From: Pyrococcus sp. NA2
GTDB lineage: Archaea > Methanobacteriota_B > Thermococci > Thermococcales > Thermococcaceae
Direction: 5' to 3'
Length of the DNA: 64,000 bases
Assembly (NCBI RefSeq): GCF_000211475.1
Contig: NC_015474.1
Coordinates: forward strand, 1,702,122 to 1,766,121
Below are positions 16,248-55,298 of the stretch, in pieces. The notes beneath the pieces are model-generated. The model was not told where the DNA came from. It did not search any database and saw only the letters and a list, made by a program, of their open reading frames with translations. The position numbers and the translations under genes are program-made. The first letter of the stretch is position 1, and each line of letters begins with the position of its first letter.

Positions 16248-16293
16248 AGCAAAATTTAAAAAGACACCTTAGAACGTGGAATGGGGGAGAGGT

Positions 16294-16500
16294 ATGGTGA
16301 GGCTCAAGGCGATCATCGTAAAGGATAGGGACGGCGAGGAGTTCCTTAGGTGCCCAAGGTGTGGAATGGTCTTCAAGAGAAGGAAGGACTACATAAAGCA
16401 CGTCAACAAAGCTCATGGTTGGCTCTTTGGCAGGGGCAAGCCAAAGGGTAAGAGGCTCAGGAAGAAGTATGCAAAGCTACTTGAGAAGAAATCTCAGTGA
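16294..16500 (+). CDS. small C2H2 zinc-finger protein
   Basis: 68 residues from ATG 16294 with GGAG a few bases upstream; a GTG at 16276 in frame has no ribosome site. One C2H2-type finger is visible: [22 protein letters not shown] (Cys-x2-Cys ... His-x4-His; given as its parts CPRCG and HVNKAH). The tail is strongly basic ([21 protein letters not shown]). Such short Thermococcales proteins probably bind DNA or RNA; the target is unknown. It is followed 50 bases on by a box C/D sRNA that lacks room for its own promoter, so the sRNA may be processed from this transcript. Confidence 0.8.
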
Positions 16501-16514
16501 CCTTTAATTCTATT

Positions 16515-16574
16515 TTTGATGATGAGACAGCCAGGACCCTGATGGGATGATGAATGGTGGGCTTAGCTGATGTC
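16515..16574 (+). ncRNA. box C/D sRNA overlapping the dph6-like start
   Basis: All four boxes are present with canonical spacing: C ATGATGA (16519-16525), 13-nt guide GACAGCCAGGACC, D' CTGA (16539-16542), 4-nt spacer, C' ATGATGA (16547-16553), 13-nt guide ATGGTGGGCTTAG (16554-16566), D CTGA (16567-16570). This is the layout of archaeal C/D RNAs, which guide 2'-O-methylation at the base paired five positions upstream of D or D'. The second guide includes the start codon of the next gene. No convincing terminal stem is seen, which is common in archaeal members. Targets were not identified. Confidence 0.82.
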
Positions 16575-17240
16575 GCTGTTCTCTATTCTGGCGGAAAGGA
16601 TTCAAACTACGCCCTCTACTGGGCTCTTAAAAACGGTTTTAACGTCAAATTCCTTGTCTCAATGGTGAGCGAAAACGAAGAGAGCTACATGTATCATACC
16701 CCGAACATAGAGCTAACAGACCTCCAGGCAAGATCCTTGGGGATACCACTTGTCAAGGGGTTTACAAGGGGAGAGAAGGAAAGGGAAGTTGAGGATTTAA
16801 AGGTCATTTTGGGAGGACTTAAAGTTGATGGAATAGTTGCTGGGGCTTTAGCTAGCGAATATCAAAGGAAGAGAATCGAAAGGATAGCCAAGGAGCTCGG
16901 ATTAAAAGTTTACACGCCGGCCTGGGGCCAGGATCCCTACGAGTACATGAAGAGCATCATTAACCTTGGCTTTAAAGTGATATTCGTTGGAGTATCTGCT
17001 TACGGCTTAAACGAGAGTTGGTTAGGTAGGGAACTTGACTTCAAAGCTCTCGAAGATTTGAAAAGACTCAACGAGAGGTATAAGATCCACATTGCTGGGG
17101 AAGGTGGAGAATTTGAGACTTTCGTTCTCGACATGCCCTATTTTAAGTACAGAATTGTCATAGATAAAGCCGAAAAGTATTGGGATGGTCTATCTGGAAA
17201 ATTAATCATAAAAAAGGCCCATTTAGAAAAGAAAAATTAA
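16554..17240 (+). CDS. Dph6-type ATP pyrophosphatase (diphthine-ammonia ligase family)
   Basis: 228 residues. [17 protein letters not shown] is the PP-loop of N-type ATP pyrophosphatases, and [14 protein letters not shown] near residue 182 is the signature of the Dph6/MJ0570 group. Dph6 amidates diphthine on elongation factor 2 as the last step of diphthamide synthesis; in archaea the assignment is by homology. The ATG used is the one abutting the C' box of the sRNA; it matches the N-terminus I recall for the P. furiosus homologue. No clear ribosome site is visible, because the upstream bases belong to the sRNA. Confidence 0.85.
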
Positions 17241-41974: not shown

Positions 41975-42014
41975 CTTTATTAACCTTCAATACATATAAC
42001 CTTTGGTGAGTATG

Positions 42015-42401
42015 ATGTCCAGGGAGATAATATATACGGAAAAAGCTCCGAAGCCCATAGGTCCTTACAGCCAAGCGATAAAGGTTGGGAACTTCATTTT
42101 TGTCGCTGGCCAAATTCCAATAGATCCAAAAACTGGAGAAATAGTTAAGGGAGGAATAAAGGAGCAAACTAGACAGGTTCTTGAGAATATCAAAGCTATA
42201 CTTGAAGCCGCGGGTGCATCTCTAAATGACGTTGTTAAGGTTACAGTATACTTAAAGAATATGGATGATTTCGGGGAGATGAACGAAGTTTACAGTGAAT
42301 ATTTCGGCGAGTCAAGACCAGCCAGAGTTGCAGTAGAAGTTTCGAGGCTCCCTAAAGATGTGCTAATAGAGATCGAAGTGATAGCATATAAGGAATCATA
42401 G
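42015..42401 (+). CDS. RidA family 2-iminobutanoate/2-iminopropanoate deaminase
   Basis: 128 residues from ATG 42015, with GGTGA five bases upstream. [20 protein letters not shown] is the RidA N-terminal signature, Arg and Glu of the active site lie in [25 protein letters not shown] (segment RPARVAVEV). It deaminates reactive enamines and imines from amino-acid metabolism; trimeric in the family. Its stop abuts the region of a minus-strand box C/D sRNA. Confidence 0.93.
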
Positions 42402-42460
42402 AGGCTCAGAAAGCCGTCCACTCCTCACCAATCAGGTGCGGAAGACCTCATCATCGCCCT
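42402..42460 (-). ncRNA. box C/D sRNA between ridA and the flippase gene
   Basis: On the minus strand: C box ATGATGA (42454-42448), 12-nt guide GGTCTTCCGCAC, D' CTGA (42435-42432), 3-nt spacer, C' GTGAGGA (42428-42422; 6 of 7 to consensus), 12-nt guide GTGGACGGCTTT, D CTGA (42409-42406). GAGGGC and GCCTC at the ends can form a short stem. The AT-rich stretch at about 42476-42488 provides a TATA box some 25-30 bases upstream. Predicted rRNA or tRNA targets are the complements of the guides, GTGCGGAAGACC and AAAGCCGTCCAC; the sites are not identified. Confidence 0.85.
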
Positions 42461-55237: not shown

Positions 55238-55298
55238 GGAGTCAGATACCCTGGGAGTCATCACCGCTTCAGTTCTAGCGAACTTCATCATCCTACTC
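55238..55298 (-). ncRNA. box C/D sRNA between tRNA-Cys and the aspartate transporter
   Basis: On the minus strand: C ATGATGA (55291-55285), 12-nt guide AGTTCGCTAGAA, D' CTGA (55272-55269), 4-nt spacer, C' GTGATGA (55264-55258), 12-nt guide CTCCCAGGGTAT, D CTGA (55245-55242). GGAG ahead of the C box and CTCC after D form a terminal stem. AACTTAATATTGC at about 55315-55328 would be its TATA box. Every box matches consensus exactly, making this the strongest of the three sRNAs. Guide complements are TTCTAGCGAACT and ATACCCTGGGAG; targets not identified. Confidence 0.9.

Follow-up and report, generated by a model that had tools for sequence, protein, structure and literature searches.

A dph6 start codon within a guide of the C/D box sRNA sR18 in Pyrococcus

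In Pyrococcus sp. NA2 the start codon of the gene for diphthine--ammonia ligase (dph6) lies inside one of the two guides of a C/D box small RNA. The question which this locus raises is whether such sharing represents a ‘switch’, i.e., an evolved means by which the guide RNA or its binding proteins control the making of Dph6, or instead whether it is an incidental result of two genes having come to lie together. Coordinates given here are positions within the window, that is, within the whole 64,000-nt stretch of DNA that was analysed (Pyrococcus sp. NA2, NC_015474.1 1,702,122 to 1,766,121, forward strand), and all of the features of the locus are on the plus strand.

The sR18 guide RNA and its predicted targets

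The sRNA is found at 16517–16572, where cmscan matches the whole of the 56-position Rfam model RF01141 (sR18) at 73.1 bits (cut-off 45), with an E value of 6.7e-14. As a full-model match with that score, this assignment is not a chance one. The boxes occur in the order C, D', C' and D, along with two 13-nt guides, as is characteristic of C/D box sRNAs. Thus, the C box (ATGATGA, 16519–16525, as seen both in the sequence and in the alignment) is followed by the D' guide (GACAGCCAGGACC, 16526–16538), by the D' box (CTGA, 16539–16542), which is invariant in the alignment of sR18 relatives, and by a spacer, TGGG, at 16543–16546. The C' box (ATGATGA, 16547–16553), the D guide (ATGGTGGGCTTAG, 16554–16566) and the D box (CTGA, 16567–16570) then complete the RNA. 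A first-pass annotation of this DNA had proposed these same four boxes and two guides, and both a direct reading of the sequence and the Rfam match support it. Boxes, guides and length are all shared with sR18 as described by Rfam, i.e., as a Pyrococcus C/D box sRNA family. The sRNA itself shows no difference from that family, with the presence of a dph6 start in the D guide being instead an aspect of its genomic context in Pyrococcus. A literature search on sR18 returned no relevant paper.

Two other such RNAs are seen in the window. One, Rfam sR1 (42403–42458, minus strand), faces the 3' end of an ORF at 42003–42401 which by eye is RidA-like. The other, at 55239–55295 (minus strand), is a candidate, matching RF00095 with 42 bits, which is below the cut-off, and it lies just past a tRNA-Cys gene on the opposite strand.

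Among 94 Thermococcales genomes, RF01141 at first gave no match in 62. A second model, built from 24 aligned sequences, recovered most of these, such that sR18-like RNAs are seen in 86 of the 94, with matches of less than about 25 bits being uncertain and possibly representing other C/D sRNAs. The core of the D' guide is nearly invariant among the 24 aligned sequences, and that core along with the boxes is kept across Thermococcales loci which have no dph6 downstream. It had been anticipated that a loss of D and D' boxes in close relatives, with the protein start kept, would speak against an sRNA here. What is seen is the opposite, in that the boxes persist at loci lacking a dph6 start. In several Thermococcus genomes weak matches to the sR18 model also are found roughly 1–9 kb from dph6 (e.g., G027:C1:741987-742035 and G069:C1:340798-340845), and these probably are a different C/D sRNA.

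Potential targets were sought in both 16S and 23S rRNA, with the fifth base from the box taken as the predicted target. The D' guide forms 11 contiguous Watson-Crick pairs with 16S 759–769, predicting C762 (this genome's numbering) as target, a fit which is equalled by 0.2% of shuffled guides. For the D guide, 12 of the 13 positions pair with 16S 830–842, three of these as G-U, which predicts G834. This second match is modest if taken alone (shuffle P of 0.05 in this genome, and of 0.014 for the form of the guide possessing GTG). D guides of other genera retain 10 to 13 of 13 pairs with the same 16S target, their changes falling at outer positions, including those positions that became the start codon. 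Both target stretches are unchanged in 60 of the 94 genomes, many of the remaining genomes being incomplete. The earlier expectation of rRNA complementarity thus holds in 16S for both guides, while in 23S there is no D' guide match which approaches that to 16S. The two predicted sites are 72 nt apart, a spacing which fits with the double-guide pattern that is usual among archaeal C/D sRNAs (PMC7994747). Methylation of the 2'-O of C762 and G834 would be the predicted outcome. Speaking against it, the corresponding 16S positions are not among the ribose methylations tabulated in a cryo-EM study of the P. abyssi 30S subunit, although that study reports only three in all.

The zinc-finger gene as likely host

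Upstream of the sRNA is a small gene for a C2H2-type zinc-finger protein (16294–16500), the zf-C2H2 match being a weak one (E 3.6e-5, slightly below the Pfam cut-off). Homologues are present in 87 of the 94 Thermococcales genomes and, of the 84 genomes that possess both, 78 have sR18 directly downstream of the zinc-finger gene, that is, on the same strand and −18 to 58 nt from the zinc-finger match. As seen with those 78 genomes, this pairing is maintained across the order.

The sole BRE/TATA-like site upstream of the unit which rises above background (AGCAAAATTTAAAA, approximately 16248–16261) lies ahead of the zinc-finger gene and agrees with the P. furiosus consensus at 12 of 13 scored positions, where background for 140-nt segments has a mean of 9.07 and a 99th percentile of 11. 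The equivalent site scores 10–12 in the other eight Pyrococcus genomes. A separate promoter for the sRNA or for dph6 was looked for as well, and in all eight of the genomes displaying the overlap the best score within the 130 nt before dph6 is that of background. This agrees with the first-pass annotation's contention that a separate promoter would not fit here, though not with its count of 14 bases before the C box, as 18 bases lie between the zinc-finger stop (16500) and the C box (16519), with 14 instead lying between that stop and 16515. Given the absence of an sRNA promoter, processing of the sRNA from the zinc-finger mRNA, as had been suggested, is probable, and the zinc-finger gene is the likely host transcript. 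Zinc-finger gene, sR18 and dph6 accordingly may be viewed as co-transcribed, with sR18 then cut from the product. Indeed, archaeal C/D sRNAs mostly derive from longer transcripts (Tripp et al. 2017, as reviewed in PMC7994747).

Pyrococcus sR18 differs from its relatives in having weak terminal pairing, versus G-C terminal pairs in the latter. Circularisation tends to be absent in T. kodakarensis from those sRNAs that have at most two terminal pairs (PMC9014305) and so, by analogy, Pyrococcus sR18 may be mainly linear. The leader gave no signal of a stable fold (z of 0.62).

A protein start within the D guide

The ORF at 16554–17240 encodes a protein of 228 aa, and what had been described as a ‘dph6-like’ gene can be named more firmly, i.e., as archaeal Dph6. 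It matches TIGR03679 (Dph6_archaeal) with an E value of 1e-90 and 302.8 bits, versus a cut-off of 197.3, and PF01902 with an E value of 2e-86. The ATP-binding PP-loop motif, SGGKDS, occurs at residue 12, and the solved relatives PH1257 (2d13) and 3rjz align with this protein from residue 1.

The C' box, as previously claimed, directly abuts the ATG at 16554. The D guide had been equated with codons 1–5. This is correct for codons 1–4, with codon 5 contributing its first base only. The D box then lies within codons 5–6 (GCT GAT), which are codon-identical in eight Pyrococcus genomes, so the overlap reaches codon 6 once the D box is counted. In all Pyrococcus genomes the C' box ends with TGA in the dph6 frame, and this stop bars any start upstream of the D guide. 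Within the D guide, in all eight genomes with the overlap, are both codon 1, which is ATG or GTG, and codon 2, which is GTG. Between the sRNA and SGGKDS, seven of these eight genomes have no ATG, GTG or TTG, which there excludes alternative starts, while the eighth (G008) retains one further GTG, at codon 8, right after the D box. In those seven genomes a precursor that has been cut into sRNA consequently cannot encode Dph6, and to that extent the idea that a given transcript serves either as mRNA or as sRNA stands.

It could be argued that dph6 really begins at another codon, making the overlap an effect of annotation. Codon 1 does vary, codon 2 is always a potential start, G008 has its additional GTG, and no strong Shine-Dalgarno site is present, with the best pairing (−6.0 kcal/mol) falling on the C' box itself and within background. 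Yet with upstream starts barred by TGA, with downstream starts missing from seven of eight genomes, and with codons 1 and 2 both being in the D guide, the overlap stands whichever of the two is used, and this possibility therefore seems very improbable.

The shared bases also are unusually constrained. Codons 2–6 of dph6 are nucleotide-identical in all eight genomes, whereas among 126 comparable codons for conserved residues in the rest of the gene just 8 are so, a strong contrast for which the Fisher P of 4e-6 should be read only as a guide, since the eight genomes are related. The residues which these codons specify, VGLAD, are absent from the Dph6 N-termini of those relatives in Thermococcus whose genes were read on the plus strand, these proteins instead beginning with M-R-V or similar. 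The same bases, that is, are both guide and codons, and this dual use is real.

Eight genomes, all of them Pyrococcus, are the only ones in which the overlap occurs. Assignment of these relatives to Pyrococcus is a reading of the Rfam family, of kinship labels, and of the match of one genome (G006) to P. horikoshii, its Dph6 being the same as PH1257 over the first 60 residues except for residue 1 (M, as read from GTG). Outside of Pyrococcus, among the listed dph6 positions, dph6 is not beside sR18, and in sampled loci of other genera sR18 is followed by a convergent gene that is not dph6. Within Pyrococcus, G011 is basal in a Dph6 tree (midpoint rooted, for drawing only). There dph6 adjoins the sRNA, but the ATG at the usual place falls past the D box, with a GTG in the guide being a possible start as well. 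The simplest order of events, judging from these arrangements, would be an old zinc-finger–sR18 pair, behind which dph6 moved in Pyrococcus, with its start then captured within the guide.

Capture or control

The favoured explanation, to which a probability of roughly 0.75 may be attached, is that an old sR18 incidentally captured the start of dph6, resulting in a fixed ‘either/or’ transcript rather than in an evolved switch. By this explanation sR18 would be an old Thermococcales guide RNA which is carried in, and cut from, the transcript of the small zinc-finger gene, and which with L7Ae, Nop5 and fibrillarin would direct 2'-O-methylation of two nearby 16S sites (C762 and G834 by prediction). 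A rearrangement within the Pyrococcus lineage would have placed dph6 directly behind sR18, its start coming to lie inside the D guide in all sampled species except the deepest. The guide core stays fixed, with outer guide positions, which tolerate wobbles or mismatches, supplying the GTG or ATG. One precursor molecule then could give rise to sR18 or to Dph6, never both, which probably lowers Dph6 output. That trade-off would be a side effect of shared sequence, with no regulatory circuit required.

Alternatively, L7Ae or the whole sRNP could bind the C'/D' element of dph6 mRNA and thereby block initiation, with sRNP supply tying rRNA methylation to diphthamide. Because the dph6 start lies immediately against the C' box, the region of initiation would be covered by any sRNP bound there. 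In addition, L7Ae is known to repress mRNAs through k-turns in Sulfolobus (PMC5539422), L7Ae-type sites have been noted in some T. kodakarensis transcripts (PMC4247193), and the overlap persists in eight species, as selection for regulation might also bring about. Against this, sR18 persists in 86 of the 94 genomes, mostly without dph6, and constraint on the guide together with start-codon capture explains retention of the overlap without regulation. The usual dph6 ATG of G011, furthermore, is outside of the sRNA, two unrelated C/D sRNAs of this same genome contain start codons too, as incidental overlap predicts, and no signal or response connecting the two pathways was found. An evolved switch therefore appears unlikely. 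Less likely still is the stronger version, in which the sR18 sRNP of Pyrococcus, or else L7Ae by itself, would determine how much Dph6 is made by committing each precursor either to guide RNA or to translation, such that demand for 16S methylation controls EF2 diphthamide. The first-pass annotation had suggested that rRNA modification and diphthamide synthesis could be linked in this way. A purposeful link of that kind is not supported. Across Thermococcales sR18 and the zinc-finger gene are found together with no dph6 behind them, with the overlap confined to Pyrococcus, and given this conservation the link is dropped as the default reading. A connection between rRNA modification and diphthamide is possible, with the distribution favouring incidental capture with a fixed trade-off.

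The element might instead be nothing but a cis-acting k-turn in the dph6 leader, i.e., no guide RNA at all. Jäger et al. (2014; PMC4247193) proposed as much for some predicted snoRNAs at transcript 5' ends, and the Pyrococcus form does lack the G-C terminal pairs of its relatives. Retention of the boxes and D' guide core across Thermococcales where no dph6 is downstream, along with the 11 contiguous pairs between D' guide and 16S, nonetheless render this highly doubtful.

Start codons within C/D sRNAs are not without precedent. Approximately 7% of archaeal C/D sRNA genes overlap the start of a downstream ORF, whose start codon in many cases falls within a guide, and a reporter placed downstream of such a 5' overlap was expressed at a lower level (Tripp et al. 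2017, cited from PMC7994747). With that class the present locus shares a start codon within the sRNA or guide, lack of an own promoter, and, probably, release from a longer transcript. It differs in that here the overlap has been traced across a genus and compared with overlap-free relatives, and in that the ORF, in seven of eight genomes, has no usable start outside of the sRNA. A study of T. kodakarensis (PMC4247193), thus within the same archaeal order, describes the same type of overlap with release by processing presumed, its main text not naming sR18 or dph6. By analogy with L7Ae translational regulation (PMC5539422), the k-turn-type element at the dph6 start could be bound by L7Ae, though the elements of that system are in leaders or coding regions of l7ae and of other genes, with repression tested, while here the sequence context would allow such binding.

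Among 30 C/D sRNA candidates examined in the NA2 genome, three, sR18 included, contain the first start codon of an ORF that is 90 aa or longer. Of the other two, the first (L122, G000:C1:583668-583723) has within its C' box the first start codon of a 233-aa ORF of unknown function. In the second (L134, G000:C1:531158-531214) the C' box holds the first start of a 183-aa ORF which by eye resembles cobalamin adenosyltransferase, with an alternative start available just past the D box.

The overlap of sR18 and dph6 thus is real and conserved, and adds one more to the overlaps of this type known from archaea. It does not, in itself, demonstrate a new mechanism. It is, instead, a clean example of bases which are required both as methylation guide and as protein codons, and it shows how a gene, once moved beside an sRNA, can come to use as its start a codon at guide positions that tolerate change. 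With overlap-free relatives available, moreover, it can be asked by natural comparison whether sharing of this kind imposes a cost upon, or controls, the downstream gene.
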